A stretch of 45,166 bases of DNA. Origin: Acidobacteriota bacterium. Lineage in GTDB: Bacteria; Acidobacteriota; Holophagae; Thermotomaculales; Thermotomaculaceae. The stretch lies in the NCBI GenBank assembly GCA_013151025.1, contig JAADJC010000025.1:34681-79846 (forward strand), in the 5' to 3' direction. How positions within the stretch are numbered: position 1 is the stretch's first letter; each line of letters starts with the position of its first letter. The position numbers were made by a program, and so were the translations under genes. Positions 5,333 to 43,049 of the stretch are shown one piece after another. The notes under the pieces were generated by a model that saw only the letters and a program-made list of their open reading frames with translations, was not told where the DNA came from and searched no databases.

Positions 5333-6241
5333 TTACTTTTTACTCTCTTTTGCCTTGAGAGCCGCCTCTTCCTTCATGCGCTTCCGGATTTTCTCAACCG
5401 TTTCCTGAACCTGCTTTGTCAGTTTGTTGGATGGGAACTCCTTCAGAAAGGTCTGGCAATGCTCAATCGCCTCCGAGTACTGTTTCAATTCAATATGGCA
5501 ATTGATGATCAGAGGAAATACCTTCTCCCGCATCTCGGGAGCTTTTGCCGCCCTGTTCAGCAGGGGCAAGGCTTCGTCATACTTCTGGTGATCGTGGAGA
5601 TAACCGCCGAGGCGATAGTCAATTTCCGGGTTGTCCACACCATTGTCCACGGCCTTCTGAAACAGCTGATAGGCTTTCGAGGCATGGTGGGTTATCATGT
5701 AGATTTTGCCAAGGTTCAGGTAGGCGTATGAGTAGTCCGGACGTAATTCCATCAGCTGTTTATACAGCTCGCCGGCTTTCTCCATCTGTCTATTCTGGGC
5801 ATAAGCCACTGCAAGCACATCCACACGTCCCACGTCATTGAGTGTGGCATCGGCTCCCAACGCTTTGACTTTCATCAGCGCGTACTTAACCCGGCCATCC
5901 AGGTTGTTCTTCTTTGTTTCCACGCTGTACAGGTAATCCAGTGACTCAATCGCATCTTTCCCGCCCTGTTTGTAAGCGGTATTCAACTGTGTCTTCGCTT
6001 CATCCAACTTTTCCTGGTTATAGTAGACTTTTCCAAGTTCCAGGTGGGCTTCGTAGAAGCTCGCATCCCGTTTCAAGGCCTTCAACAGCCATTTCTCCGC
6101 TTTTTTAAGCTTACCGTCTTTCGCACTTTCCAGTGCTTTGTTGTACTGCTTGAGAGCCTTCTTATCTGTACTCATTGCGTTTCCGCTCATTGAAAGCGTG
6201 ACCATCACGATGACCACAGCCAGTTTCCGCATTAATGACAT
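5333..6241 (-). CDS. Exported tetratricopeptide (TPR) repeat protein
   Basis: The start is set at 6241 because an AGGAGG Shine-Dalgarno lies 8 bases before this ATG and the protein then begins with a normal signal peptide (MSLMRKLAVVIVMV, ending SGNA|M). This gives 302 residues. An upstream in-frame Met at 6319 has no such support. The mature protein is a series of TPR units (for example AEKWLLKALKRDASFYEAHL, GKVYYNQEKLDEA, AYLNLGKIYMI, then YRLGGYLHDHQKYDEA), ending in a Lys/Glu-rich helix. TPR proteins are assembly scaffolds in the periplasm or at the inner membrane; the partner is unknown. It lies between two TonB receptor transcription units and could be the last gene of the TetR operon (135-base gap). 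Confidence 0.85.
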   Translation of the reverse strand: MSLMRKLAVVIVMVTLSMSGNAMSTDKKALKQYNKALESAKDGKLKKAEKWLLKALKRDASFYEAHLELGKVYYNQEKLDEAKTQLNTAYKQGGKDAIESLDYLYSVETKKNNLDGRVKYALMKVKALGADATLNDVGRVDVLAVAYAQNRQMEKAGELYKQLMELRPDYSYAYLNLGKIYMITHHASKAYQLFQKAVDNGVDNPEIDYRLGGYLHDHQKYDEALPLLNRAAKAPEMREKVFPLIINCHIELKQYSEAIEHCQTFLKEFPSNKLTKQVQETVEKIRKRMKEEAALKAKESKK

Positions 6242-6376
6242 TTGATGTTTCCTCCTGATCAAAAAATCGTCACGAATTATACCACATTCATGAAAAACTG
6301 ATCTCACTGTTTTTGTCACAAAAATTCAGAAAAATTGTATTTTCGAAAGACCATGATATTGGTTCTGATTCCCAGT

Positions 6377-7183
6377 TTATACTTCCGTTACTGTTCCCGC
6401 TGCTTTGAGAATTTCCGCAGCTACTGCTTCCGGATTTTCCACAACAACAGCGTGGCCGGCCTCCGGAATAATTTGAAATGCACTGCCGGGGATTAAATCC
6501 GAAATGGCTTTTGTCCTTTCAAGAGGGATAAACCCGTCCTTTTCTGACGCAACGATCCGTGACGGACATTCAATGCGCGGGATTTCCCATGAAAGGTCTA
6601 TCCCTTCCGTTGATTCCATCAGACGATCCAGATCCTGAAACCAACGGATCGGAACGCCCTGCATCTGATTTCTGCGAGCCGTGAGAAGCGTACTGTGGGT
6701 TTCCCTGTACCTGCTGGAATACACAGTGGGACCCATCACGTCCAGCAGATAGCCATGATCACCGGATGCGACGACCTGTTTCACAGCCTGTCGCCAGCAA
6801 CGCACTTCCACCGTCATGGCGCTGTCAAACCGGTCGGCGGAAGCAATCACGGTCAGTGAACGGATGTCGTCGGATCGCCTGGCGGCAAGATACATGGCCA
6901 CCAGCCCGCCGAAAGAGGTCCCTGCCACATGCACTGGGCCATCCACCAGACTGTCCAGAAGCCTGTCTACATCTTCCACATGGCTGTCCACATTTGAGGA
7001 TACCGGACCCGGGCTCCGCAACTGGCCACGGAAATCACATCGAATCACAGTAAACCGGGTTTTCAGCAGGGCCACCACCGGCTCCCATGAAGAAACCGAC
7101 ATGGCAATTCCGTTCAATAAAAGGAGGGGCTCTCCGTGACCGTCCTGTACATGGTAAAGCAAAGAGTCAGAACCGGACATCAC
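6377..7183 (-). CDS. Alpha/beta-hydrolase (third of operon)
   Basis: A 268-residue soluble alpha/beta-hydrolase. The nucleophile elbow is GTSFGG (Ser90); the acid is probably Asp216 (SEKDGFIP) and the base His244 (EAGHAVVVENP). The oxyanion region is LLLNGIAMSVSSW, close to that of its neighbour at 7167-8036, so the two are probably diverged duplicates. The 5' end overlaps the neighbour by 17 bases. Family members hydrolyse esters, thioesters, lactones or C-C bonds; the substrate cannot be told. It is the last enzyme of the TetR-headed operon. Confidence 0.87.
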   Translation of the reverse strand: MMSGSDSLLYHVQDGHGEPLLLLNGIAMSVSSWEPVVALLKTRFTVIRCDFRGQLRSPGPVSSNVDSHVEDVDRLLDSLVDGPVHVAGTSFGGLVAMYLAARRSDDIRSLTVIASADRFDSAMTVEVRCWRQAVKQVVASGDHGYLLDVMGPTVYSSRYRETHSTLLTARRNQMQGVPIRWFQDLDRLMESTEGIDLSWEIPRIECPSRIVASEKDGFIPLERTKAISDLIPGSAFQIIPEAGHAVVVENPEAVAAEILKAAGTVTEV

Positions 7184-8036
7184 CGGCCTTCATGAAGCGC
7201 TTCACCATGGGGAAAAACAGGTCCGCTCGCTCCAGATACACCACATGGCCGGACTCCGGAATGGTTTCCCAGCGGGATTGAGGAAAAATGTTTAAGAGTT
7301 TTTTCTGTTGCCACATGGGAATGGCACGATCCTGCTCCCCGGCCATGAGCAGTACCGGTGTCTCAACAGCCTGATAGTCAGGTAGATTTTGCTCAATTCC
7401 AGCAAAAAAGGGATTCTGGGCCTCAGTCAGACGAATCAGGCAATGGCGGTCATCTACATACCGGTCATAGAATCGCCTACGCATTTCGCCAAGTTGTTCG
7501 GGTACCAGTTTTGTCACAAAGGATTCGCCGAATATTTTTTCATACATGTAGTAGGTGTAGAGTTCAAATTCTTCTTTTGTACCCCGGTAGAACCGGAGGG
7601 AAATTTCCTGGTACATTTCAAACAGTCGCTCATGAGAAAGAAGAATGCCGGAAAGGGTCAGAGTACACAGTCGCCCCTGGAAAAGACGAGCGAAATCCAT
7701 CGCCACAAAACCGCCATACGAAATGCCAACGAGATGGACTTGATCCACTTCATTCAAATCCATGATATCTACAAGCAACCTGGCCATGTCAGGAATATAG
7801 TAGGGAACGTCTTCTTTAGATGACTGGCCCTGGCCGGGGAAATCATAGAGAATTACATCATATTCATCCAGGATCAATGGCAAAAAGCTGTACCATGCTC
7901 TGGTATGCATCGCGAGCCCATTCAACAGGCAGACAGCTTCCCTTTTCCCTTCACCATGATACTCCCACCAGATGGAATGGGCGCCTGTTTCCAGGCGCCC
8001 GGTTTTTGTTGGTTCAATTGTTTTGTTCACGACCAT
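7167..8036 (-). CDS. Alpha/beta-hydrolase (second of operon)
   Basis: A 289-residue soluble alpha/beta-hydrolase. The nucleophile elbow is GISYGG (Ser106), the acid Asp236 (AGEQDRAIP) and the base His264 (PESGHVVYLER). It shares the LLNGLAMHTRAW oxyanion region with the next gene, which suggests tandem duplication. It has no signal peptide, so it acts in the cytosol. The gap to the upstream thiolase gene is 15 bases and the 3' end overlaps the next hydrolase by 17, consistent with one mRNA. The substrate is unknown, though the setting with thiolase and acyl-CoA ligase makes a thioester, ester or ring-cleavage substrate plausible. Confidence 0.87.
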   Translation of the reverse strand: MVVNKTIEPTKTGRLETGAHSIWWEYHGEGKREAVCLLNGLAMHTRAWYSFLPLILDEYDVILYDFPGQGQSSKEDVPYYIPDMARLLVDIMDLNEVDQVHLVGISYGGFVAMDFARLFQGRLCTLTLSGILLSHERLFEMYQEISLRFYRGTKEEFELYTYYMYEKIFGESFVTKLVPEQLGEMRRRFYDRYVDDRHCLIRLTEAQNPFFAGIEQNLPDYQAVETPVLLMAGEQDRAIPMWQQKKLLNIFPQSRWETIPESGHVVYLERADLFFPMVKRFMKAGDVRF

Positions 8037-8051
8037 ATTTCTTTAATAAGC

Positions 8052-9260
8052 TTATTTCCCCGGTTTCAAAACGGTGCAGACAGACGCGCAGATGGGGCCG
8101 CCAATGTTGAAGGTTGCTGCAACATTTGTATTTTTCACCTGCAGAGGTGCCGGTGCTTTGCCCATCAACTGCAACGCGCTCCAGCCAATCATGGCAATAC
8201 CGGTTGCCCCCACCGGATGGCCCTTTGCGATGAGGCCACCGGAGGTATTGATGGCACAGGAACCGTCCACCGCAGCATGACCGTCCCGCCAGAATGCCGC
8301 GCCTTTACCGTATTCCGCCACACCGAGGACTTCCGCCGCGATGGCGCCCATGACAGTGAAACAGTCATGGACTTCCGCCACATTGACATCCTGCGGTGTA
8401 ACACCGGCCATTTTGTAAGCATCATTCATGGCTCGGAAGGCGCCGGTGGGTTTAAGTACATCCCGGCCACTTACCCGAAGGGGATCGGTTGCCTGAGCAT
8501 AGCCCGCCACTTCCACACAATCCGCTTTGTCCACGCCCAGTTTGGCCAGACCCTTTTCCGTTGCAAGAATCAGTGCGCCGTAACCATCTGTAATCTGCGA
8601 ACAATCATAGGTTTTCAGGGGCAAGCCTTCCACAATGTACCGGTTCCGTCCCTCTACCTTTGTCGCTTCATCAAGGGAAACCTGAATGCCGTTCATCTGG
8701 GCATAGGGATTGTGCTGAGCGTTTGCATATTCCAACGCAGAAATAGACGCCAGATCCCGTTCCGTCACATTATGGGTATCCATGTATTTCTTCATAATCT
8801 CCGCAAAAATGTGCGGAAATACGTAAACCTTCCCTTCCCTGTCTTCCGGATGGGAAAAATAGCCCAGGGCTTCCCCTACCAGCTTTCCATCCATCTTGCC
8901 TATGTCGTTGCGCATTTTTTCATAGCCGACAGCGATACCAATATCACCCAAACCAAGAAGTAGTTTGTGAATGACGGACACTACCGCCTGCCCGCCGGAC
9001 GCGCAGGCAATTTCAATCGCTTCAATAGGCTTTGCCGCAAGGCCCGGGACATCCGCCATGAGACCGGCAATGAGTCCCTGCCCATTAAGGGAAATGTTGC
9101 AGACAGCACCAATGGAGCCTACATCCATCATGGACGGCTCCGCGCCGATTTCCGCGCAGGTTTCAGTAACGGCATTGGAAATAATCTCCGGCACGCTCAT
9201 GTCAAAGAGCTTTCCGAACTTCGACTGATGGTAAGCAGCAATGTAAATGGGTTCTCTCAC
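8052..9260 (-). CDS. SCP2-type thiolase / acetyl-CoA acetyltransferase-like
   Basis: A 402-residue protein of the SCP-x (SCP2 thiolase) branch. The nucleophilic Cys86 lies in IEIACASGGQAV, and downstream are EVHDCFTVMGAI and the NTSGGLIAKGHPVGATG loop that carries the second active-site region. It has the HDCF pattern of this branch rather than the NEAF motif of FadA-type thiolases. The expected reaction is reversible thiolytic cleavage or condensation of 3-oxoacyl-CoA; many SCP2 thiolases act on bulky or branched substrates. It lies 11 bases from the acyl-CoA ligase. The FadA-type enzyme at 30242 is a separate gene. Confidence 0.9.
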   Translation of the reverse strand: MREPIYIAAYHQSKFGKLFDMSVPEIISNAVTETCAEIGAEPSMMDVGSIGAVCNISLNGQGLIAGLMADVPGLAAKPIEAIEIACASGGQAVVSVIHKLLLGLGDIGIAVGYEKMRNDIGKMDGKLVGEALGYFSHPEDREGKVYVFPHIFAEIMKKYMDTHNVTERDLASISALEYANAQHNPYAQMNGIQVSLDEATKVEGRNRYIVEGLPLKTYDCSQITDGYGALILATEKGLAKLGVDKADCVEVAGYAQATDPLRVSGRDVLKPTGAFRAMNDAYKMAGVTPQDVNVAEVHDCFTVMGAIAAEVLGVAEYGKGAAFWRDGHAAVDGSCAINTSGGLIAKGHPVGATGIAMIGWSALQLMGKAPAPLQVKNTNVAATFNIGGPICASVCTVLKPGK

Positions 9261-9271
9261 GGTTATCCTCC

Positions 9272-10795
9272 TTATTTTGAAAACATTTCCACAAGAGCTG
9301 CGCGTAATACCTTTCCGTAAGCGGTCCTTGGCAACTGATCCAGAACAACGATCTGCTTCGGAACTTTGTATCGCGCAATTCGTTTTTCAAGCCATTTTAT
9401 CACTTCATCGGGCTTTATTTCCATATTCTCTGCCAAAACCAGAAATGCGACGCCGACCTCTCCCCATTTTTCATGGGGCACCCCAACAACTGCGCAGTCC
9501 AGAACCGCCGGATGCCGGGACAGGACCGACTCAATCTCAGCAGGATAAATATTCACACCCCCGGAAATGAACATCTCTTTTTGACGCCCGACAATATAAA
9601 AAAAGCCGTCTTCATCCTGCGTCGCCAGATCTCCGGTGTGGAAGAAGCCTTTTTCGTCGTACGCATCGGCAGTGGCATCCGGATTGTGCCAGTAACCTGC
9701 TGAAACGTGGGGGCCCCTCAGGAGCAATTCCCCGACCTCGCCTGCAGGTACTTCCCGGCCGTCTTCGTTGACAAGCCTTCCCTCAGTGAACATCATGGGC
9801 TTTCCGATGGAACCCTTGCGCTCCCATGCGTCATTGTCTGTCATGGCAAAGCAATTGACCCCGACTTCAGTGAGACCATAACCCTGGCGAAGAACCAACC
9901 CCCGCTTATGATAAACCTCAACCAGTGATGAAGGCAGGGGAGCGCCCCCGGAAATCAGCCATCGGATCCGGGAAATATCCGTTCTCTCAAAATTCGGACT
10001 CTCCGCCAGCATCTTCCAGATGGCGGGGACGCCCAGAACTACGGTGCATCCTTCTTTTTCAATGGTATGCCAGACTTCCCGGGGCTCAAACCGGCTGTGA
10101 AGGACGATTCTCCCCCCCACTGTAAAGATGGGTATCAGAAAAGCACCCAACCCCCCGGCATGGTACAGGGGCGTAAAAATCGGGCTGACGTCATCGGAGC
10201 GAAGCTGCCAGCACATCACAGTGTTGTAGCCATTGAATACCGGCATCCGGTGGGGAATCATCACTCCCTTCGGACTGCCGGTTGTGCCACTGGTGTACAG
10301 TAATGCACAGAGATCTTCCGGCAGGCTGTTCTGAGTGCAAACAGCAGAACCCACTAAATGCAACAGAGCCTCTGCTGTCCGGTCACCAGGGATTATTGGT
10401 GTGTCCAGTGCAATCCGGTTTTCCACCGCAACCTGCAGATGCAGAGTCTGAACGATTTCACTGAATTCACCGTCATAAATCAATGAGAGAACGCCAGCGT
10501 CCTTTATTATCTCTTCAAGCTCAGGAGCTGCCAGATGAGTATTCAGGGGAACCAGAACCACCCCGGCCTTGATTGCACCAAAAAACACATCAAGAAACTC
10601 CACCCGGTTTCCACAGAGCAATCCTACCCGATCTCCTTTTGAGAGGCCCAGGCTATTTCGAAAAATTCCGGCCCACTTCAGAGCCCGGCTATTCAATTCT
10701 CCGTAGGAAAATCGCCGGTTGGTTTTCAGCTCCAGTAATGCCTCCGAGTCCGGTGTCAACCGGGCACGCTCTCCAAGGATGTCGCCGTGTATCAT
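9272..10795 (-). CDS. Class I adenylate-forming acyl-CoA ligase
   Basis: A 507-residue protein. It has the P-loop YTSGTTGSPKG (residues 167-177), the YGLTEVG core motif, the GFFHTGDLATQDEDGFF hinge region, GRQKEMFISGGVNIYPAEIE and the C-terminal catalytic lysine in RTAYGK (Lys495). The enzyme activates a carboxylic acid with ATP and transfers it to CoA in the cytosol. Chain length or ring specificity cannot be read. It is 4 bases from the membrane hydrolase gene and 11 from the thiolase, suggesting that the acid it activates is later cleaved by the SCP2 thiolase. Confidence 0.92.
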   Translation of the reverse strand: MIHGDILGERARLTPDSEALLELKTNRRFSYGELNSRALKWAGIFRNSLGLSKGDRVGLLCGNRVEFLDVFFGAIKAGVVLVPLNTHLAAPELEEIIKDAGVLSLIYDGEFSEIVQTLHLQVAVENRIALDTPIIPGDRTAEALLHLVGSAVCTQNSLPEDLCALLYTSGTTGSPKGVMIPHRMPVFNGYNTVMCWQLRSDDVSPIFTPLYHAGGLGAFLIPIFTVGGRIVLHSRFEPREVWHTIEKEGCTVVLGVPAIWKMLAESPNFERTDISRIRWLISGGAPLPSSLVEVYHKRGLVLRQGYGLTEVGVNCFAMTDNDAWERKGSIGKPMMFTEGRLVNEDGREVPAGEVGELLLRGPHVSAGYWHNPDATADAYDEKGFFHTGDLATQDEDGFFYIVGRQKEMFISGGVNIYPAEIESVLSRHPAVLDCAVVGVPHEKWGEVGVAFLVLAENMEIKPDEVIKWLEKRIARYKVPKQIVVLDQLPRTAYGKVLRAALVEMFSK

Positions 10796-32676: not shown

Positions 32677-33438
32677 TCACCTTTCACTCATCCCGCTTAC
32701 AATTACCCCTTCTGTTCCCACAACCTCCAATAGAGGGTTCTCCCATTTTATACCTGAAATACCCACTTCCGGGATGTCTATACCCTGTTTCAGCGGCATT
32801 CGAATCAGCTCATCATCGGTCAGAGATTTCAACGGACCCTGGGCAAGATACACTGGGACTTTCGCCCCGACAGCAAGAGCAATCAGGCTTCGGGTACCAC
32901 TTCGGTTGACAAACCAACCGGGACTGACGGCATCACATCCCAAAATAATGGCTTCCACTTCCAGTATACGGCTGAAGTACGGGCAATCCCCCCACAGACA
33001 TGGCATCACACCGGAAATTCCGTCCAACCGCTGCGCCATGGCCAACCCCTCTCCGTCAGGGCCGCACAGTGCCACATCCACTTTCAGTGGACGATTCAAA
33101 GCTGCCAGAGCCTTCAATACCATACCGGAAAAGCTGTACACCGCCACATGCCGGATTTCCCCGGGGAAAGAAACACGAAAGGATTGCAGCATAATCTCTT
33201 CTTCCCGTGCAATTTGCCGACAAAATTCATTCAAAGATGTTTCGGACAATCTGTTTTCTGAAAAAAAACGCTTAAGATGAATAAAACAGGCCATCCCACT
33301 GTGTGCCTTTATCAGGCGCTCCGGCATTCCTTCAGGAAATGGCTTCCCGGATGCCGCCAGGGATTTCATAAAATCCAATGTCTTTGATAAAAGCACGCTG
33401 GAACCACTGGTTCTGTCATTCAGAATTGCCTGAAACAT
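32677..33438 (-). CDS. eIF2B/MtnA-related family protein, function unknown
   Basis: A 253-residue protein similar to the initiation factor 2B alpha/beta/delta and methylthioribose-1-phosphate isomerase fold. An N-terminal helical half is followed by a Rossmann-like half with VDVALCGPDGEG, VEAIILGCDAVSP (167-173), NRSGTRSLIALAV (178-) and GAKVPVYLAQG, close to the GADAV / NKxGT motifs of the family. Bacterial members outside MtnA are often ribose-phosphate isomerase-like; the substrate here is not evident. It overlaps the end of the histidine kinase gene by 23 bases, so it is the last gene of the BMC-headed operon. Confidence 0.75.
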   Translation of the reverse strand: MFQAILNDRTSGSSVLLSKTLDFMKSLAASGKPFPEGMPERLIKAHSGMACFIHLKRFFSENRLSETSLNEFCRQIAREEEIMLQSFRVSFPGEIRHVAVYSFSGMVLKALAALNRPLKVDVALCGPDGEGLAMAQRLDGISGVMPCLWGDCPYFSRILEVEAIILGCDAVSPGWFVNRSGTRSLIALAVGAKVPVYLAQGPLKSLTDDELIRMPLKQGIDIPEVGISGIKWENPLLEVVGTEGVIVSGMSER

Positions 33439-36400
33439 GAATCCCTTCCGTTCTCAGGATAATACGAAAATGGGCGCCTTCTTCACAGGGAACGGCTTCG
33501 ATCTCTCCCCCCATTTCATGCATGAATTCTCTGGAAATGAACAATCCCAGTCCCGTTCCACTTTCCCGTGTGGAAAAATAGGGCTCAAATACTTTGGCTA
33601 CATTTTCAGGAGGAATTCCCTTTCCGTTATCCCGATAGTCCAAGATGACTTTTTCTCCAGTCTCATGAATCTCTATTCTTACCTCCCCGGATTCCCCTGA
33701 AAAACTGTACGTGTTTTCCAGAAGGTTCCCCAATACCCGGGTCAATTTAAGACTGTCCCCCATTACCACAACCTCCGGGCCGATAATTTCCACGGACAGG
33801 TTCAGGTATGTTTCCACCAGGGAACTGATAAATTCCTTCAAGTTAATTCTACGGAGTCTTTCCGGAGATTTCCGGGAAGCCCTCACCAGATCCGAAAATT
33901 GTGCTGAAATAGCTTTCAGTTCTTCTGTCTTCTTGAGGATATTTTCTACCACCCGGGGAATTATCCCCGCCAGTTTCCGGGGCTCCTTCTTCGCCACCGA
34001 CTCCAGGAATTCGGCATTAAGCCGGATGGGCGTCAACGGGTTCTTGATGTCGTGGGCCACCTGACGCGCCATATCGCCGATGACAGACAAACGACTGGCC
34101 CGTACAACATCCGTAACATCGTCCACGATTACAACATGATTCCCGTTTTCAAGCTGTACGACAGAAATCTGATAGTTTCGTCCATGGAGTACAAGGTCTG
34201 TTTTGAAAGGGCCTTTTCCAGCCACCAGCCCCTCTGTTATTTCTACAGGCAATTTCCCGAAAAGGGGATTGGATGCAACCACTTCCTTCCCCTGCCCGAC
34301 AAGCGCCACCGCCGATGAAACATTGCCCAGCAACGCCTCCAGGTTGAGCCGCTGATTTTTCAGGGAAAGCGCCATTTGTTCCATGGCGGATATCAAGGTT
34401 CCCATTTCATCATCATAATCATAGTGTATAGCCACCTTGTAATCACCCCGGGAAATGCCTTCTGAGGCCTCTGACAGTAAAAGAATCGGATCCACAATCT
34501 TCCTTGTAAGAAAAGCGGAAATCAGAAATGAAACCAACAGAAACAACACCAATACAATCATCAAAGCCCGGACTCCGTTGAGAAACGGGGTTGTTTCCCA
34601 ACTGCCCAAAGGCCGGATCTGAAGAACTGATGCCGGGTAACGGTTGAGGGTGAGTGGGACATAGAGATATTCTCCTTCAAAAAATGCTTCCCGGCTCTCA
34701 CCAGTTGTTGACTTAAGGTAGGCCGGATAGCTCAACAGCACCGGGGTCTGCAGGTGATTGGTACTGAACACCACCAGGCCTTTGCTGTAAAGGGAATAGT
34801 CGCCGTGTATCAGGGTCTTCAGAAAACCAAGATAACTATCGGAAAGCATCGGCTCATCCCGCTCCAGCAGATGACTGGCCATATCTGCTGTACGGTAAAG
34901 CCCCTCTTTAGAAACGCTGCGGGTAAAGGTTCGGGATTGAAACATCAGTAAAATACCCACCAAGGTGAGAAAACCGGTTAGAACGGCAAACTGGCCCAAC
35001 ACGGTTCGGGCAAACAGGCCCCGTGTACCCGGCCCGGCCATCTTTGAAAAGCTGACGTACAGGATCATTCCCAGAAGGATCAGAAAAGCGAGATCAGAAA
35101 GGACCTGGAAAATGCCCGGCGTTACTATCCGAACAACTTCCCTGCCGGCCAACCGGCGAATCTGAAAACTCCCGCTGTACAAGCCCCCGGGTTTCAGGAA
35201 AGACAATGTATACAAGTCCGCAGACAAACGCAAAGACAAAATTCCATATTTGAATGGGGCGGTTCCTGCAACCACACGGCGACCGCCCCTTCCGGCAGAC
35301 AGTGTCTCCACAGAATGCTCTGCAGGCAAACTCATCACTTCCGGTATCCCCCTGGAATAGAAACTGATAATTTCCCCGATCTGGTTAAAATAAACAGCTT
35401 CAAAGTCATATGTGGAATCCACCAGTCCCGAAGATCTCAAATAATCCAGCAAATCGCGGAATCCACCGGTTTCTGCAATTTCAAGGTAGCGATCCAGATC
35501 CTGAAACGCCCGGGCCTCAATTTCAGCGGGTTCAGTTACATTCTGCGACACCAGGCGGCTCATGCGAAACCAGGTCTCCCCGTACAGTGTGGCCAGAACC
35601 AGAATCGCCACTGTAGAAATCAACAGAATTGCGTGCCAGGGCTTTCCCAAACGTTGAAACAGGTAGGCAACGGTGCCAATCAACGCACAAAGGATGAAAG
35701 CCGGCACTGAAAAAAACACCGTGGATAACAGGATGAGAACAGAAAACCAGTGAAGGCGGGTGGCGGAAAAAAATGCCCCTGCCAGCCAGGCCAATCCAAA
35801 TGTTGCCAGTACCGGAGAGTGATAAAGCGCAGTATAAAAATGAAACGCGTTGAAGCCCCGCTGAAAAAGCATCACAAAGAACAGGGCCATGAAGCCGGCA
35901 AAAAGCGGGTTCAACCATTGGCGAAGAGCCGGAATCCGATGACTTCTCAGATGAAGTGCTCCCGCAAACAGAAAAAGGTAACAGGGCAAAGGAGAAAGAA
36001 TGACCTGCAAAAGGAGAATCATTGCAAACAGAGTAATTGCCCATTGACTCCCGACGGCTATCATGCCCAGAAGAACAAAAGCCAACAGAACCGCCAGTGA
36101 GCCATTGGGACTGTTTCGTTTTACCACAAGCTGATGGCCCTGAACCACTCCCACAGTTCCAATCCGGACCCCATCCAGAACCACAGGCAACGTATCCTCG
36201 TATTCACCCTCAAAGCCCCTGGCGGAGTCGTTCCACAGTATCGGCTTCATGTTCAGGTTGAAAACCGCAACAGGGTTTCCAAAGCGGTTCAATCGGCTAT
36301 AAACAAGAGCTTTCTCCGCCTCGTTTCCCTTTCCCGAAAGTATTTTTGTCAAAAGCTTATTTGAATGAGACACAACCTGCCCCGGGCCGGTACAAATCAC

Positions 36401-36508
36401 ACGCTTTGAGGGTGGTGGGGGATAGAAATGAGCCATTCCCCCCAGTGCGACAATTACCAGCAGGAATCCAGCCATGTTCCGAGAAAACCTGTTCTTTTTC
36501 ATGGTCAT
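33416..36508 (-). CDS. NtrY-like membrane sensor histidine kinase
   Basis: A 1030-residue protein. The N-terminus (1-310) has about nine membrane helices, with an extracytoplasmic loop at about 35-130. A second sensory loop lies at about 315-465. Helices near 465-490, 505-525 and 645-668 follow, then HAMP (about 669-720), a short PAS-like region (about 725-800), the phosphoacceptor His819 in RQVAHDIKNPLTP, and the ATPase domain (NLLENTYSF; RDNGKGIPP; STRESGTGLGLF). The HDIKNPLTP H-box is the NtrY type. No response regulator is adjacent. It has a promoter of its own at 36529-36556 but is in line with the sigma/anti-sigma genes. The start may be 36508 or 36502. Confidence 0.9.
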   Translation of the reverse strand: MTMKKNRFSRNMAGFLLVIVALGGMAHFYPPPPSKRVICTGPGQVVSHSNKLLTKILSGKGNEAEKALVYSRLNRFGNPVAVFNLNMKPILWNDSARGFEGEYEDTLPVVLDGVRIGTVGVVQGHQLVVKRNSPNGSLAVLLAFVLLGMIAVGSQWAITLFAMILLLQVILSPLPCYLFLFAGALHLRSHRIPALRQWLNPLFAGFMALFFVMLFQRGFNAFHFYTALYHSPVLATFGLAWLAGAFFSATRLHWFSVLILLSTVFFSVPAFILCALIGTVAYLFQRLGKPWHAILLISTVAILVLATLYGETWFRMSRLVSQNVTEPAEIEARAFQDLDRYLEIAETGGFRDLLDYLRSSGLVDSTYDFEAVYFNQIGEIISFYSRGIPEVMSLPAEHSVETLSAGRGGRRVVAGTAPFKYGILSLRLSADLYTLSFLKPGGLYSGSFQIRRLAGREVVRIVTPGIFQVLSDLAFLILLGMILYVSFSKMAGPGTRGLFARTVLGQFAVLTGFLTLVGILLMFQSRTFTRSVSKEGLYRTADMASHLLERDEPMLSDSYLGFLKTLIHGDYSLYSKGLVVFSTNHLQTPVLLSYPAYLKSTTGESREAFFEGEYLYVPLTLNRYPASVLQIRPLGSWETTPFLNGVRALMIVLVLFLLVSFLISAFLTRKIVDPILLLSEASEGISRGDYKVAIHYDYDDEMGTLISAMEQMALSLKNQRLNLEALLGNVSSAVALVGQGKEVVASNPLFGKLPVEITEGLVAGKGPFKTDLVLHGRNYQISVVQLENGNHVVIVDDVTDVVRASRLSVIGDMARQVAHDIKNPLTPIRLNAEFLESVAKKEPRKLAGIIPRVVENILKKTEELKAISAQFSDLVRASRKSPERLRRINLKEFISSLVETYLNLSVEIIGPEVVVMGDSLKLTRVLGNLLENTYSFSGESGEVRIEIHETGEKVILDYRDNGKGIPPENVAKVFEPYFSTRESGTGLGLFISREFMHEMGGEIEAVPCEEGAHFRIILRTEGIHVSGNSE

Positions 36509-36528: not shown

Positions 36529-36556
36529 ATTATACCGGAATATGTGAGAGTTGCAA
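36529..36556 (-). promoter_or_regulatory. Promoter of the histidine kinase gene
   Basis: On the minus strand, TTGCAA (36551-36556), a 16-base spacer and TATAAT (36529-36534), inside the 65-base gap after the anti-sigma gene. The kinase and eIF2B-like genes can thus be transcribed apart from the BMC genes. Confidence 0.6.
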
Positions 36557-36573
36557 AATAAGAGTCAGTTGTA

Positions 36574-36816
36574 TCAGTTGTTTTTCTTCCTGCATGATTC
36601 TCTGAACGCCTGGAGGACAGATTCGCAGACATCTTGTGGCGGAAGTTTCTTATCCAGACCGTGGGCAATTTCAAGGCTCTCCCTGAACGTCTCCACAAAC
36701 TCCCGGCAATGGGGACAAACCTCAAGGTGCTCCTGAATCCGTTGACACTGGCCCCGGGCCAACTCTCCGTCTACGTAATCGGAAAGAATATCCAGAATTT
36801 CCTCACATTTCATCAC
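36574..36816 (-). CDS. Cytoplasmic zinc-finger anti-sigma factor
   Basis: An 80-residue ZAS-type protein: CEEILDILSDYVDGELARG, then HLEVCPHCREF with the HxxxCxxC motif. There is no membrane helix, so unlike the anti-sigma factor at 218-682 it is soluble and probably responds to a cytoplasmic or redox signal. Its ATG overlaps the stop of the ECF sigma gene by 4 bases. It should inhibit that sigma factor. Confidence 0.9.
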   Translation of the reverse strand: MMKCEEILDILSDYVDGELARGQCQRIQEHLEVCPHCREFVETFRESLEIAHGLDKKLPPQDVCESVLQAFRESCRKKNN

Positions 36817-37373
36817 CGACCCCTTTTGAAATAATCCGCCACCTGGTTCCGCAGCAATAATCTTGCCCGATGGACTCTTACCTTTGCATTGGAAAGGGAC
36901 GTTTCCAGAATTTCTGCAATTTCCTTATGGGGCAATCGCTCCACTTCCCTGAGAAGAAAAGGAATTCGATAGTGTACCGGAAGATTCAAAATCGCATTTT
37001 CAATCACCCTTGCCGCTTCCTTCTGCTCCAGTTTGTCCTGGGGATGGTAGCGGTTGTCACTTCCTGCATCATGAGAAGTTTCCAGCAGTTCATCCAGGCT
37101 GCTTTCCTGCCCGCTTTCCTTGCGACGCTTCTGAAGACAGGCATTGGACGCAACCCGGTAGAGCCACGTGGTCAGCTTGGCGTTTCCTTTAAAATTTCGG
37201 ATGTATTTAAAGGTATTGATCAGAGTTTCCTGGAGAATATCGCTGGCGTCCTCCGGATTTCCACAGAAGCGAATGCCGAAATTGTAAATGGTATCCCGAT
37301 ACTGGTCAAAAAACTGGGTAAAGGCTTCTTCATCGCCGGATTTCATTCGTTCGATCAGCTGCTGCTCCGACAT
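36813..37373 (-). CDS. ECF sigma factor (RpoE-like), coupled to the BMC operon
   Basis: The start is set at 37373 (MSEQQLIERMKSGDEEAF), giving 186 residues; an ORF start at 37463 would run through the end of the preceding gene. Region 2 (FDQYRDTIYNFGIRFCGN; DASDILQETLINTFKYI; LTTWLYRVASNACL) and region 4 (LPVHYRIPFLLREVERLP; HKEIAEILETSLSNAKVRVH) are complete. Only one base separates the upstream DUF711 stop from this ATG (TGA-A-ATG), and no good Shine-Dalgarno is present, so translation is coupled to the BMC-associated gene. It probably controls this operon or a stress regulon; its promoter motif is not evident here. Confidence 0.92.
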   Translation of the reverse strand: MSEQQLIERMKSGDEEAFTQFFDQYRDTIYNFGIRFCGNPEDASDILQETLINTFKYIRNFKGNAKLTTWLYRVASNACLQKRRKESGQESSLDELLETSHDAGSDNRYHPQDKLEQKEAARVIENAILNLPVHYRIPFLLREVERLPHKEIAEILETSLSNAKVRVHRARLLLRNQVADYFKRGR

Positions 37374-37374
37374 T

Positions 37375-38745
37375 TCAATTCCGCATACTGGTAATCGGGG
37401 CCGGAATTCGTCCACCCCGCTGGATGAAGCGGTCACAAGAATATTTGTTGATATCCTGAACAATGGCCATCCCCAGAAGCCCGCCGAAATTCACCACATC
37501 CCCGACTTTACTTCCCGGCGGTACAATTACACGGACAGCGGTGGTTTTTCCATTGACCACGCCGATGGAAATTTCATCGGCAATGAGACCGGAAATTGTC
37601 GATGCCGGCGTATTCCCCGGAACCGCCACCATATCCAGACCCACCGAGCAGACCGCAGTCATGGCTTCCAGTTTCTCCAGGGTCAGCGCGCCGATTTTCA
37701 CCGCCTCAATCATAGCAGCATCCTCTGAAACCGGAATAAACGCGCCGGACATGCCGCCCACGTAGGACGACGCCATCACGCCGCCCTTTTTCACCGCATC
37801 GGTCAACAACGACAGTGCTGCTGTGGTTCCCGGCGCACCGGGCTGTCCCAGGCCCATGTTCATCAGGATTTCACCGATGGAATCCCCCGCTACCGGTGTG
37901 GGCGCCAGGGACAAGTCCAGAATCCCGAATTGTACGCCCAGACGTCGAGCCGTTTCCCTGCCAATGAGCTCACCGGCACGGGTAATTTTGAAAACCGTCT
38001 TCTTGATGATTTCAGAAAGGGAACCCAGATCCACCGGACCGGCATCTTTAACCGCGTGGTTGACCACTCCCGGCCCACTGACCCCGACATTGATAACACA
38101 TTCCGGTTCCGATACCCCATGGAATGCCCCTGCCATGAAGGGATTGTCTTCCACCGCGTTGGCAAAAACCACAAACTTGGCATTCGCCAGTGCGCCCCGG
38201 TCTTTCGTAATCTCCGCCATCTCTTTGATGACTGTCCCCATTTCCCGAACCGCGTCCATGTTAATACCGGCACGGGTAGATGCCACGTTGACGGAAGAAC
38301 ATATATGGTCTGTCTCCGCTAATGCCTGGGGAATGGATCGGATAAATTCTTTCTCTACCCGGTTGGCCCCTTTCTGCACCAGAGCTGAATATCCACCGAG
38401 AAAATCTGCACCGATTTCATCACAGGCCTTATCCAGGGCTTTTGCAATTTCCACAAAGCCGTCCCGGTCTATTGAAACACCACCGATCAGGGACACCGGT
38501 GTAACAGAAACCCGCTTGTTGGCTGCCCGGATACCGAATTCCTCTTCAATGCCATTGACCACCTTTACCAGATTTCCGGCATACTTCATTACCTTGTCAT
38601 AGATACGGGTTTTCGTTTCTTCCACGGAAGAAGAAATGCAATCAAACAAGGAAATCCCCATAGTGGTAGTGCGGATATCCAGATGTTCCTTTTGAATCAT
38701 TTTGATCGTTTCGAGAATCTCTCTTGTACTAAAGCTACCAAGCAT
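37375..38745 (-). CDS. UPF0210 (DUF711) family protein
   Basis: A 456-residue member of UPF0210, often called 'PFL family' although it is not a pyruvate formate-lyase. Typical segments are [92 protein letters not shown] and [14 protein letters not shown]. The biochemical function is not established. In many bacteria its gene lies beside a UPF0237 ACT-domain gene, as here (33-base gap). A GGGAG Shine-Dalgarno lies about 11 bases before the ATG. What is unusual is its place in an operon with a BMC shell gene and an ECF sigma factor. Confidence 0.9.
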
Positions 38746-38778
38746 TTAACAATTATCTCCCTGAGCACTCTTCGGTTG

Positions 38779-39222
38779 TTACACCTTGTGCATGAACTGG
38801 AACAGTTCTTCGTGCTGAGAAAAGATGCCGACGCCCAGCTCTTCACCTTTTTTCGTCAGCATTTCCTTCAATTCTGAAAAACTGCAATTTGACCCCACCA
38901 GATTAACAATCACAATCATGGCAAAATTCTCACCCAGTAAGGTCTGGGTAATATCGGTAATGTCTATGTTTTTTTCTGCAAGAATACCTGTAATTCCGGC
39001 TACAATCCCAGGCTGACTCTTCCCGAAAGCAGTGATAATAGCAGCCTGGCTCTCTGCCGGGTCCGCATTTAAAACCTGGGCTCCGGCACCATCCTCACCC
39101 ATCGGAACGGTGGTAATCAGGTCCCGAACCATCTGCTTTACAATTTCCGGATTTGCAGAATCACCGAGGTGCTTGAAAATAATCTCGGTAATTTTATACA
39201 CGATATCTCGTCTGTCCATCAA
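38779..39222 (-). CDS. UPF0237 ACT-domain protein with extra N-terminal BMC-type helix
   Basis: A 147-residue protein. Residues about 58-147 are a normal UPF0237 ACT domain (AAIITAFGKSQPGIVAGITG; ILAEKNIDITDITQTLL; SQHEELFQFMHKV), which by itself is the usual full length of about 90. Residues 1-40 are an addition: an amphipathic helix (RRDIVYKITEIIFKHLGD) and a second short helix (EIVKQMVRDLI), then a flexible linker. This resembles encapsulation peptides of BMC cargo proteins. ACT domains bind small ligands such as amino acids and regulate partners. The ATG overlaps the aldehyde dehydrogenase stop by 4 bases. Confidence 0.85.
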   Translation of the reverse strand: MMDRRDIVYKITEIIFKHLGDSANPEIVKQMVRDLITTVPMGEDGAGAQVLNADPAESQAAIITAFGKSQPGIVAGITGILAEKNIDITDITQTLLGENFAMIVIVNLVGSNCSFSELKEMLTKKGEELGVGIFSQHEELFQFMHKV

Positions 39223-40790
39223 TCCACCTTCCTGAAAACATCATGCTCCCGTGCGGTATCCTTCGCCAATGGCGTAACCATGGTCCGGGAGGAAATAAGT
39301 ATTTTCCGGCCTTCTCTCACAGCATCCACTACATCCCGTTCCGACACAAAATCCACTACATCATGAGGCGTTTCCGCCACCACGCGGCCCTGAAGCTTCC
39401 GGTCAATAATGTCAACCAGACCGGAGGAAGCACCCACCTGCAGCGGAGATTCAGTACCGATATTTACCGGATTGGTCTCAAAGGCCACCCTTTTCACATT
39501 GATCATGTGCTTTGCCGTGATATTTTCGGATGTAATATTATTGCCGAAAGTCCCGCAACCTAGTGTCATGGAGGGCATCAACCGGGTCGTGTACCCAACA
39601 GCTCCGTGGGTCGTAGGGGTATTAACCAGAATCCGGAAAGCGGGTTTTTTCAACGCGAATTCACGGATTACATCGAGATTCCTGGAATGAATCCCAAGGG
39701 AATGGCCCAGCCCACCGAAATTCAACAACTGGATGCAACGCTCACAGGCAGCCTGCCAGCCATCTGCCACATAGAAGCATAGAATCGGAGACAACTTTTC
39801 AATGGAAAGCGGATGATTTTTTCCCACCCCATCCATTGGCACAAGCAACACCCGTGTTTCTTCCGGCACGGAAAAACCTGCAATCCCGGCAATCACCGCC
39901 GGGTCTTTCCCTACAATCTTCGGATTGGCCGTAAACTTGGGGGTCACAACCACCTGTTCCAGCTTCTTCTTTTCTTCATCGTTGACTACGTAACAACCAT
40001 TTCGCTTAAAGGCGTCCAGCATGCGGTCCGCAATGGGCTGATCCACAATCACCGACTGCTCGGACGCACAGACAGTGCCGTTATCGAAAGATTTTCCTGC
40101 AACAACGTCTTTTGCCGCTTTCTCCACTTCGGCGGAACGCTCCACAAAAACAGGTACGTTTCCCGGCCCGACGCCATATGCCGGTTTTCCGGACGAATAG
40201 GCCGCTTTCACAAGGCCCAGCCCACCGGTAGCCAGAATTACCCCGGTTTTCGGATGACGCATCATCTCGTTGGTCAGCTCAATGGTGGGGCTTTCCAGGA
40301 CCTGTACTGTGTCTGACGGCGCTCCGGCCTGCTTCAGCGCGTTCTGTATAACCCTCACGGTTTCCCCGATGCACTCCTTTGCGGATGGATGGGGAGAAAA
40401 CAGAATTGGGTTCCTTCCTTTCAACGCTATAATCGCTTTATACAATGTTGTGGAAGTGGGGTTTGTAGATGGAATAACAGCCGCCACAATGCCGACAGGC
40501 GCAGCGACTTCCCATATGTTCCGATTCGAGTCTTCCCGAATAATTCCAACAGTCTTTTCATCCTTAATGGAGTCCCAGAGAATCGTAGTGGACAGCTCAT
40601 TCTTAATCATCTTGTCCGCCACTCTGCCGAAACCGGTTTCAGAAACCGCCAGCTCAGCCAACCGCCGATTTTCCCTCACACCGGCATCCACAATTGAGTG
40701 AACCATCTGATCCACCTGCTCCTGGGAATATCCCTCTATGATTTTTCCCGCTGCTTCAAGACGGGCAAAAACCGCATCCAACTGGCTCAT
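39219..40790 (-). CDS. CoA-acylating aldehyde dehydrogenase, BMC type (EutE/PduP-like)
   Basis: A 523-residue protein of the CoA-acylating branch: VAAPVGIVAAVIPSTNPTST, GPGNVPVFVE, the catalytic Cys241 in FDNGTVCASEQS, FGGLGHSLGIHS and a VNTPTTHGAVG region. It oxidises an aldehyde to acyl-CoA with NAD and CoA. Residues about 450-523 are an extension beyond the catalytic fold, with an amphipathic helix (DVVDFVSERDVVDAVREG) and an ILISSRTMVTPLAKDTARE end, resembling targeting tails of microcompartment enzymes. It is 9 bases downstream of the BMC shell gene, so it is probably cargo. The alcohol- or aldehyde-producing enzyme is not in the window. Confidence 0.92.
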   Translation of the reverse strand: MSQLDAVFARLEAAGKIIEGYSQEQVDQMVHSIVDAGVRENRRLAELAVSETGFGRVADKMIKNELSTTILWDSIKDEKTVGIIREDSNRNIWEVAAPVGIVAAVIPSTNPTSTTLYKAIIALKGRNPILFSPHPSAKECIGETVRVIQNALKQAGAPSDTVQVLESPTIELTNEMMRHPKTGVILATGGLGLVKAAYSSGKPAYGVGPGNVPVFVERSAEVEKAAKDVVAGKSFDNGTVCASEQSVIVDQPIADRMLDAFKRNGCYVVNDEEKKKLEQVVVTPKFTANPKIVGKDPAVIAGIAGFSVPEETRVLLVPMDGVGKNHPLSIEKLSPILCFYVADGWQAACERCIQLLNFGGLGHSLGIHSRNLDVIREFALKKPAFRILVNTPTTHGAVGYTTRLMPSMTLGCGTFGNNITSENITAKHMINVKRVAFETNPVNIGTESPLQVGASSGLVDIIDRKLQGRVVAETPHDVVDFVSERDVVDAVREGRKILISSRTMVTPLAKDTAREHDVFRKVD

Positions 40791-40799
40791 TGTTCAGTT

Positions 40800-41093
40800 C
40801 TACGCCTTTCTCGGTGCTTTGTACCCCGGCAGAATAGTCTCTACATCGCCATGGGGGCGCGGAATCACGTGGACCGAAATCAACTCACCAACCCGGCGTG
40901 CTGCGGCAGCACCTGCGTCAGTAGCCGCCTTCACAGCGCCAACGTCTCCCCGTACCATCACGGTAACATAGCCGCCACCGATATATTCCTTTCCAATAAG
41001 CTCAACATTGGCCGCTTTGACCATTGCATCTGCCGCTTCAACTGACCCGATAAGGCCCTTGGTTTCAATCATGCCCAGCGCTTCTCTATTCAT
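40800..41093 (-). CDS. Bacterial microcompartment shell hexamer (BMC-H)
   Basis: The start is set at 41093 (GGAGG 5 bases upstream), giving 97 residues. It is a canonical single BMC domain: [60 protein letters not shown] and [14 protein letters not shown]. Such proteins form hexamers that tile the facets of microcompartments. Only one shell gene is present and there is no pentamer (BMC-P) or trimer gene in the window, so further shell genes must lie elsewhere if a compartment is made. It is the first gene of the eight-gene minus-strand operon. Confidence 0.95.
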
Positions 41094-41241
41094 CATTCCC
41101 TCCATCATGAAATCCTGTTTTATCTTACCACACAACCCGGAAATGCGTCCAATTTCCTGATTCGCTCCGGAAACCTCTGCTTCTATTTATCGTACAATCA
41201 AATGAATCTCATAAAAAGGATATAACAAAGGGAGGTCACAA

Positions 41242-41484
41242 ATGGAAAACAATGCTCAAAACCGGCCAATGACAGTGGGAGACTGGTTTGTAACCATTCT
41301 CATTCTGGCAATACCACTTTTAAACATCGTCATGTACCTGTACTGGGCGCTCAGTAGTACCGGCAACCTCAACCGGAAAAACTTCTGCATCGCGTCACTA
41401 ATCTGGATGCTCATCGGAATCGCCATTGCTGTTCTGGTCATTGGCTTCGTCTCCCTCATTGGCGTCGCCGCCATGAGTCACTGA
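41242..41484 (+). CDS. Small two-helix membrane protein
   Basis: An 80-residue protein of unknown function with a strong GGGAGG Shine-Dalgarno. Two membrane helices: about residues 14-37 (WFVTILILAIPLLNIVMYLY) and 49-77 (IASLIWMLIGIAIAVLVIGF). The short loop between them contains GNLNRKNF. Similar small proteins with an IPLxNIxMYxYWA start occur in many bacteria without known role. It is divergent from the BMC operon, starting 148 bases from the shell gene's ATG. Confidence 0.8.
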   Translation: MENNAQNRPMTVGDWFVTILILAIPLLNIVMYLYWALSSTGNLNRKNFCIASLIWMLIGIAIAVLVIGFVSLIGVAAMSH

Positions 41485-41641: not shown

Positions 41642-41669
41642 TTGTGTTGAAAAAGAAAAAGTGTATGAT
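41642..41669 (+). promoter_or_regulatory. Possible promoter of the malic enzyme gene
   Basis: TTGTGT, a 16-base A/G-rich spacer, then TATGAT, ending 42 bases before the ATG at 41712. Both hexamers are imperfect. Confidence 0.4.
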
Positions 41670-41711
41670 ACCTGCCGAGATGGCCTGACGGCTGACTCCG
41701 GAGGAAAGAAT

Positions 41712-43049
41712 ATGCGCAATAATATCATTAAAAGAACCCGATTGAAATTTGACGATGTGGCCGGTTTTCTCGGGCGTTTTGCCACTATGATCGGAGAATA
41801 CGGTGCCCTCTTCGGTGAAATTTCCACCGTTCATGTGGGAAAACGGACGAAAATCAGGGATATTGACCTGTACGTATCGGATGAAGAAACCTTCGACAGA
41901 ATCTGCGATGAAATCCGGAAAATGGACGGCGTGGACCTGATCGAAGTGAAAGATGCGGTCAATGAAGCCCATGTGGACGGAAAAATCGAAATCCGCCCAC
42001 GGGTGAAAGTCGAATCCATTGACGATCTCAGTATTGTATACACCCCCGGTGTCGCATCCGTCTGCAAAAAAATTGAGGCGGATCCCGAACTGAAATACAA
42101 GTACACCGGCATCCAGAACAGCGTGGCAATTGTTACCAACGGAACCGCCATCCTCGGACTGGGGGACATCGGCGCCGTGGCCGGCATGCCGGTCATGGAA
42201 GGAAAGTCCCTGCTTTTTAAAATTTTATCCGGGGTCAACGGATATCCCATTCTTATTGAAAACAAAGACCCGGAAGTGGTGATTCAGGCGATCAAAGCCA
42301 TTGCGCCCACTTACGGCGCCATTAAACTGGAAGATATCAAGGCGCCGGAATGTTTTGAAATTGAAGACAGGCTGGATGCGGAACTGGATATTCCGGTGGT
42401 TCACGACGACCAGCACGGCACCGCCGTCGTGGTATTGTCGGCACTTCTGAACATTGCCCAGTACACCTATCTGAACCTGAAACGGGCCACCGTCGGCATT
42501 GTCGGGCTGGGTGCCGCGGGAATCGGCATCTCAAAACTGCTCAGAGCATACGGGATCAAACAGATATACGGCACCGACATCAACAAAGAAGCAACAGAAC
42601 GATTTGAGGCGCTGGGAGGTATTCCCACCGATCTGGAAGGGGTGATGAAAGAAGCCAGAATCGTCATTGCCACCACCGGTGTGCCGGGACTGATTAAACC
42701 GGAAATGATCCAACCCAAACAGGTGATTCTGGCGCTGTCCAACCCCAATCCGGAAATTACGGCGGAAGACGCGCTGAGTGCCGGTGCCGCCTATGCGGCG
42801 GACGGACGTTCCGTCAACAATGCCATTGCTTTTCCCGGGCTGTTCAAAGGGGCGTTGATGGCACGGGCCACCCACGTCAATAATGCCATGAAAATTGCCG
42901 CCGCCACCACCATCGCCAGCTTCACTATGGTCGGTGATCTGGTCCCCAACATCCTTGATACAAAGCTCCACCGGGCTGTTGCCAAAGCAGTGGAAGAATC
43001 CGCCCTTAAAACAGGTGTTGTCAAATACGTAAAATCTGTAGCAGATTGA
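41712..43049 (+). CDS. NAD-dependent malic enzyme with N-terminal ACT-like domain
   Basis: The start is set at 41712 (GGAGG 7 bases upstream), giving 445 residues. An ACT-like domain occupies about 1-80 (RLKFDDVAGFLGRFATMIGE). The malic enzyme core follows: SIVYTPGVASVC, VTNGTAILGLGDIGAVAGMP, the metal-binding VHDDQHGTAVV, and the NAD-binding GIVGLGAAGIGISKLL. It decarboxylates malate to pyruvate; Asp in YGTDINKE after the Rossmann strand suggests NAD. The ACT domain points to allosteric control by a small ligand. It is monocistronic, with a strong terminator. Confidence 0.93.
   Translation: MRNNIIKRTRLKFDDVAGFLGRFATMIGEYGALFGEISTVHVGKRTKIRDIDLYVSDEETFDRICDEIRKMDGVDLIEVKDAVNEAHVDGKIEIRPRVKVESIDDLSIVYTPGVASVCKKIEADPELKYKYTGIQNSVAIVTNGTAILGLGDIGAVAGMPVMEGKSLLFKILSGVNGYPILIENKDPEVVIQAIKAIAPTYGAIKLEDIKAPECFEIEDRLDAELDIPVVHDDQHGTAVVVLSALLNIAQYTYLNLKRATVGIVGLGAAGIGISKLLRAYGIKQIYGTDINKEATERFEALGGIPTDLEGVMKEARIVIATTGVPGLIKPEMIQPKQVILALSNPNPEITAEDALSAGAAYAADGRSVNNAIAFPGLFKGALMARATHVNNAMKIAAATTIASFTMVGDLVPNILDTKLHRAVAKAVEESALKTGVVKYVKSVAD

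Follow-up and report, generated by a model that had tools for sequence, protein, structure and literature searches.

The 45,166-nucleotide stretch of DNA analysed here in full (hereafter, the window) comes from contig C16 of a 2.6-Mb, 142-contig acidobacterial genome (G000) and carries a six-gene operon, in which a hexameric shell protein of bacterial microcompartments (BMC-H) and a CoA-acylating aldehyde dehydrogenase (AldDH) are encoded together with an ACT-domain protein of the UPF0237 family, a UPF0210 (DUF711) protein, an extracytoplasmic function (ECF) sigma factor and an anti-sigma factor. Comparison with related genomes suggests that the operon is probably the AldDH satellite of a dispersed compartment resembling the sugar-phosphate (SPU) type, with UPF0237 and UPF0210 as an optional accessory cassette, which a helical hairpin at the N-terminus of UPF0237 might dock at the compartment.

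All six genes are located on the minus strand and each yielded a strong family match in profile searches (Table 1), which, together with the same gene order in relatives, bears out the six-gene operon proposed in the initial annotation. In operon order, the intergenic gaps are 9, about -1 (-4 if a TTG start is used), 33, 1 and about -1 (-4 if a GTG start is used) bases. The BMC-H scores above the cut-off of the EutM-type model NF012018 (136.6 bits), and its start codon is conserved in the six genomes compared. The AldDH matches the acetylating acetaldehyde dehydrogenase model TIGR02518 with 567 bits, below the model cut-off of 620, and presumably converts acetaldehyde to acetyl-CoA. Its alignment revealed a C-terminal segment (39219-39467; DFVSE-DV-A--EGRKILI--RT-VTPLA) which follows a variable linker and is common to acidobacterial BMC AldDHs.

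The operon is a satellite and not a free-standing compartment: it contains a single BMC-H gene, and the further shell genes are located on contigs C102 and C128. The initial annotation recorded no pentamer, trimer or signature enzyme, which is true of the locus, yet all of these are present elsewhere in the genome, as emerged from the genome-wide search that it had recommended for BMC-P (pentamer), BMC-T (trimer) and signature enzyme genes. In total, G000 encodes two BMC-H, one BMC-T with two domains and six BMC-P, and all but the operon BMC-H are found on these two contigs. C128 (locus L011) encodes a class II aldolase, BMC-H, BMC-P, a PduS/RnfC-like protein, BMC-T and two more BMC-P, and C102 (locus L012) encodes BMC-P, RpiB, two further BMC-P and DeoC, so that RpiB (PF02502, 184 bits) and DeoC (PF01791, 64 bits) lie amid three pentamer genes. 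The suggestion that the operon is a satellite locus is thus supported. Compartment genes occupy three loci in G000 versus five (at 632, 906, 1442, 1786 and 2107 kb) in G124, a complete relative from the sister genus consisting of a single 2.32-Mb contig. The C102-type RpiB/DeoC unit is present also in G013, G124 and G212, and the C128-type unit in G013, G228 and G212; six pentamers are encoded in four of the five genomes of the family, and three were found in the fragmented G228. Short helix-like segments occur at the N-termini of DeoC and RpiB and at the C-terminus of the class II aldolase; these are cargo-like, but their hydrophobic moments are uneven. An acyltransferase-like reading frame is present between BMC-H and BMC-P on C128 (L011, 7441-8160). 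Locus L060 of G124 (6217-10347) contains a pentamer pair; one gene on, a 3-hydroxyacyl-CoA dehydrogenase and an acetate kinase are encoded, which might offer acetyl-CoA an exit route, given that no PduL was found in the family.

The order BMC-H/AldDH/UPF0237/UPF0210/ECF/anti-sigma is identical in all five genomes taken from this sparsely sampled family, which represent two genera, and in a named metagenome-assembled genome (MAG; L063), indicating that the arrangement is not due to chance. When the nearest UPF0210s were drawn from a collection of the genomes of 84,980 species, the Acidobacteria MAG CG_4_9_14_3_um_filter_49_7, with a 95% identical UPF0210, was the nearest among the named records that contain this operon. 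The conserved linkage that the initial annotation asked for extends well beyond the genus as far as BMC-H/AldDH with UPF0237/UPF0210 is concerned, but adjacency of the ECF/anti-sigma pair was seen only in the family of the window genome. In the 11 AldDH loci from outside the family that were read first, BMC-H is mostly adjacent to AldDH, and UPF0210 is present in none. The order BMC-H/AldDH/BMC-P/UPF0237/UPF0210/BMC-H is found in other Acidobacteriota, namely, in L064, L067, L071 (where the contig starts within AldDH) and L100, as well as in G025, G075 and G086 of family f22 and, split over two contigs, in G197. Elsewhere the linkage is looser: in G219 (family f69) and G267 (f77), an extended UPF0237 is located at the AldDH satellite and UPF0210 is encoded at another site, and in families f5, f31 and f32, the UPF0237/UPF0210 pair lies apart from AldDH. 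Overall, UPF0237 was located in AldDH satellites of three acidobacterial families besides that of the window genome.

An informative comparison is available within f22. UPF0210-positive members of this family carry UPF0237 and an additional pentamer gene at the satellite, whereas six UPF0210-negative members (G141, G038, G114, G243, G204 and G283) have a BMC-H/AldDH satellite lacking both. The same is true of the AldDH satellites of G275, G291 and G028, from other families. Because these nine UPF0210-negative genomes keep the satellite without UPF0237, we consider UPF0210 an optional accessory rather than a core enzyme. In the cassette-bearing satellites L215, L217 and L218, the extra pentamer gene is located between AldDH and UPF0237, and there are four pentamers per genome compared to three in genomes without the cassette.

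The UPF0237 of the window is distinguished by its N-terminus. Whereas Bacillota UPF0237s consist of about 90 residues, the window protein is about 55 residues longer at this end, and the structure of a pneumococcal homologue (PDB 1ZPV) covers only its residues 58-145. The AlphaFold2 model comprises two helices (residues 3-21 and 24-37), a low-confidence linker (38-58) and the ACT domain. A homologous extension is present in the family of the window genome and in all other pentamer-bearing Acidobacteriota in which UPF0237 was located (no UPF0237 was located in G235 and G051), and an extended UPF0237 is encoded upstream of UPF0210 in all 30 UPF0210-positive genomes from the class of G301 ('bacterium BRH_c32', the source of locus L080), which we take to be Ignavibacteria. 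Neither the Bacillota UPF0237s examined nor that of Synergistes (L103) has the extension, and it is also missing in G187, the sole acidobacterium with UPF0210 and without pentamers, in which UPF0210 neighbours an unusual 198-residue ACT protein (L157), apparently with two ACT domains. Not every kind of compartment is accompanied by the extension, given that G307, a pentamer-bearing Bacillota genome, encodes the short form. From this distribution and the predicted architecture, we hypothesize that the extension may serve as a docking element.

UPF0210 also co-occurs with pentamers across genomes. Counting full-length UPF0210s of the window type, with nine Acidobacteriota carrying distant members or fragments placed among the negatives, we found pentamers in 23 of 24 UPF0210-positive versus 99 of 273 other Acidobacteriota (297 genomes; Fisher 5e-9) and in 30 of 30 versus 43 of 167 genomes in the class of G301 (197 genomes; Fisher 1e-15), although both values overstate the association because the genomes are non-independent and the UPF0210 tree consists of phylum-wise groups. 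The contrast within f22 is more telling than these values.

UPF0210 itself matches PDB 2HA9 along its full length (E 7e-159). In Foldseek searches, 2HA9 was retrieved first (template modelling score 0.86-0.95), followed by the anaerobic ribonucleotide reductases (RNR) 4con and 4coj (E about 1e-4), whereas the compartment enzyme choline trimethylamine-lyase matched weakly (E 0.02 and above). A review places DUF711 in the RNR/glycyl-radical barrel superfamily and reports that no radical glycine was found in SP0239 (PMC4390871). UPF0210 thus has the RNR/glycyl-radical-enzyme barrel fold but neither the radical glycine nor a finger-loop cysteine: an invariant loop that follows strand five, and which from the strand order appears to be the finger loop, contains no Cys. 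Radical chemistry is thus not expected of UPF0210, although the conservation of the protein argues for an active site.

A plausible scheme for the compartment can be drawn from its gene content. DeoC, acting on 2-deoxyribose-5-phosphate, and perhaps the class II aldolase would be the source of a luminal aldehyde, which the operon AldDH would convert to acyl-CoA, with the PduS-like flavo/iron-sulfur protein helping to reoxidise NADH. The hairpin and linker might dock the ACT-domain UPF0237 at the compartment and bring along UPF0210, with which it is usually paired; there, UPF0210 could function as a ligand-controlled auxiliary enzyme. More tentatively, and with rather less confidence than we place in the satellite and cassette as a whole, it is conceivable that the hairpin brings UPF0210 into compartments of at least two phyla, where this radical-free member of the RNR/glycyl-radical superfamily would carry out a reaction inside, for instance on the acyl-CoA or sugar phosphates exchanged by AldDH and the aldolases in a family that yielded no PduL.

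Several observations weigh against this picture. None of the five genomes of the family yielded a PduL (no PF06130 match, in a search that did not extend to Pta-type enzymes), which leaves the CoA-recycling step unexplained. The assignment to the SPU type is by gene content, the loci being non-contiguous, and the co-occurrence counts are clustered by phylogeny. Pentamer-less Bacillota genomes likewise encode UPF0210, whose chemistry therefore cannot require a compartment. Compared to an encapsulation peptide, that is, an amphipathic terminal helix with a flexible linker, the extension has a linker and two helices rather than one, and its amphipathicity is moderate, with a hydrophobic moment in just the 78th-95th percentile of other N-termini; the N-terminus of UPF0210 itself scores equally high (93rd percentile), and comparison of the extension with other compartment proteins produced no sequence match above noise. 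No consistent ECF-type promoter motif was detected upstream of the shell loci.

An alternative is that UPF0237 and UPF0210 are a housekeeping pair co-inherited with compartments by lineage, and the extension a clade trait unrelated to docking. The two-gene unit of pentamer-less Bacillota, the stronger conservation of UPF0210 relative to AldDH (85% versus 64-66% between genera of the family) and the phylum-wise grouping of BMC-linked UPF0210s are all compatible with such a scenario, and there is a single pentamer-less, UPF0210-bearing acidobacterium to serve as a control. However, co-inheritance does not readily account for the extended UPF0237 in AldDH satellites of several families, where it stays in G219 and G267 despite UPF0210 being encoded elsewhere, for the UPF0210-negative satellites, including those of f22 members, that are devoid of UPF0237, or for co-occurrence in two phyla; we regard this explanation as unlikely, albeit worth keeping in mind. 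Considerably harder to sustain is the idea of a new compartment type with UPF0210 as its signature enzyme, akin to the initial suggestion that it handles an unrecognised core reaction. UPF0210 does share a fold superfamily with the glycyl-radical enzymes by which GRM compartments are defined, and an operon with AldDH, but it is found in pentamer-less genomes, the family has no known radical glycine (PMC4390871), and DeoC and the class II aldolase would already provide aldehydes. Furthermore, full-length UPF0210 is absent from 99 of the 122 pentamer-bearing Acidobacteriota genomes sampled, and UPF0237 from nine AldDH satellites that are otherwise similar. A core role for this optional protein was accordingly rejected, and a new UPF0210-defined compartment type appears very improbable. 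Least probable is that the AldDH operon is an orphan, no longer part of a working compartment, as the scattered shell genes and the missing PduL might imply: every component is intact and is retained across five genomes from two genera, four of these genomes having six pentamers, and dispersed compartments (FRAG) are already a described class (PMC8217296). A dispersed SPU-like compartment with an optional UPF0237/UPF0210 cassette thus remains our preferred explanation.

The ECF/anti-sigma pair is a lineage-specific addition to the compartment operon: its position beside UPF0210 is conserved in the family of the window genome, and it was seen beside the cassette nowhere else. The anti-sigma factor contains an HxxxCxxC motif, lacks a membrane segment and resembles soluble redox-type anti-sigma factors, with RsrA/ChrR-like models matching below cut-off; the switch might respond to redox or electrophile stress. 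A TTGTGTG-TAAGAT block is located 5' of the BMC-H start in four genomes of the genus, the counterpart in the sister genus being TGTGATATTAT, and the operon promoter region does not match a full sigma70 consensus. By eye, extended -10-like boxes (TG-n-TAnnAT) are discernible at the operon and at other shell loci. Because no consistent ECF-type motif is found at the shell loci, we make no claim that these loci are under the control of the ECF factor. At the other end, the anti-sigma gene is probably the last gene of the operon, given that a sigma70-like site (36529-36557) precedes the next gene downstream, encoding a 1030-residue histidine kinase; the sigma70 scan returned 13 sites versus 8.5 expected by chance.

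Table 1. Features of the six-gene operon (window coordinates)
Feature	Coordinates	Strand	Evidence or remark
BMC-H shell hexamer subunit, EutM-like, 97 residues from the ATG at 41093	40800-41093	-	PF00936, 102.6 bits
CoA-acylating AldDH, 523 residues	39219-40790	-	best model TIGR02518
UPF0237/ACT protein with N-terminal helical hairpin and flexible linker	38779-39219	-	NF001220, 92 bits
N-terminal extension of UPF0237, residues 1-58	39046-39219	-	homologous extension in pentamer-bearing Acidobacteriota and in the class of G301; proposed docking element
UPF0210/DUF711 protein, 456 residues	37375-38745	-	PF05167, 591.5 bits
ECF sigma factor	36813-37373	-	sigma70 regions 2 and 4; TIGR02937, 99.5 bits, above cut-off
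Soluble zf-HC2 (HxxxCxxC) anti-sigma factor, 79-80 residues	36574-36813	-	PF13490, 49.3 bits
Possible extended -10 box (TGTGG-TAAGAT) of the operon promoter	41122-41127	-	block present in four genomes of the genus

The histidine kinase is NtrY-like (33416-36508) and overlaps a gene for an IF-2B-like protein (PF01008; 32677-33438); this pair also follows the operon in G228, G124 and G212. On the other side, a malic enzyme with an N-terminal ACT-like domain (41661-43049) is encoded divergently from the operon, with a small membrane protein (41242-41484) in between. No structured RNAs were detected at the gathering threshold.

UPF0210 and UPF0237 are widely conserved, and crystal structures have been available since 2005-2006, but we found no function for either protein in the literature. 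The association in two phyla, together with the matching addition to UPF0237, provides a first contextual lead on the role of both. What is new is an optional cassette of hairpin-bearing UPF0237 and UPF0210 that is linked to microcompartments in two phyla, indicating that an accessory cassette can be gained or lost at the AldDH satellites of compartments. No earlier description of DUF711, UPF0210 or UPF0237 in compartments was found in the searchable papers, a scope outside which the supplement of the 2021 catalogue (PMC8217296) falls; the main text of that catalogue mentions neither DUF711 nor ACT domains. In addition, a dispersed SPU-like compartment can be added for a lineage which appears to be Thermotomaculaceae.

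Among known systems, the compartment most closely recalls the SPU type, which is defined by DeoC and RpiB (Axen 2014, PMC4207490; Sutter 2021, PMC8217296). As in SPU loci, a DeoC-type aldolase (pfam01791) and RpiB (pfam02502) are encoded beside shell genes, and the genome also encodes an acylating AldDH, although in its own locus, a PduS-like protein and hexamer, trimer and pentamer shell proteins. However, the genes are spread over three loci in the window genus (five in the complete sister-genus genome) instead of one, a class II aldolase is added, and AldDH resides in a satellite with UPF0237/UPF0210 and the ECF/anti-sigma pair. PduL, not found in the window family, is present in most but not all SPU loci of Axen 2014 (PMC4207490). 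Because signature enzymes, AldDH and shell genes are not all in one locus, we prefer the label 'SPU-like, dispersed' to SPU. The operon agrees with satellite loci sensu Axen and Sutter in having too few local shell genes, with more elsewhere in the genome. The ACI type of Acidobacteria (PMC8217296) is similar in that the AldDH satellite is located away from the class II aldolase (the window operon versus L011, and L046 versus L061 in G124), and the UPF0237/UPF0210 cassette can likewise occur at the satellite of genomes that have ACI-like loci. As described, however, the ACI main locus combines a class II aldolase, a hydroxyacid dehydrogenase and a pentamer triplet and is not defined by DeoC/RpiB (PMC8217296). 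In the window genome, the aldolase and BMC-H are found in L011 and the pentamer triplet with RpiB/DeoC in L012; no hydroxyacid dehydrogenase was noticed in L011, a genome-wide search not having been made. FRAG compartments (PMC8217296) are comparable in having shell genes in up to six places and a pentamer triplet, but the majority of FRAG shell genes lie far from any known enzyme, whereas here DeoC, RpiB and the aldolase adjoin shell genes. Finally, the Bacillota UPF0237-UPF0210 pair, known structurally from Streptococcus pneumoniae (1ZPV and 2HA9), has the same gene order and the same folds as the window pair; it differs in that its UPF0237 has no N-terminal hairpin and no shell genes are adjacent in the Bacillota loci taken.

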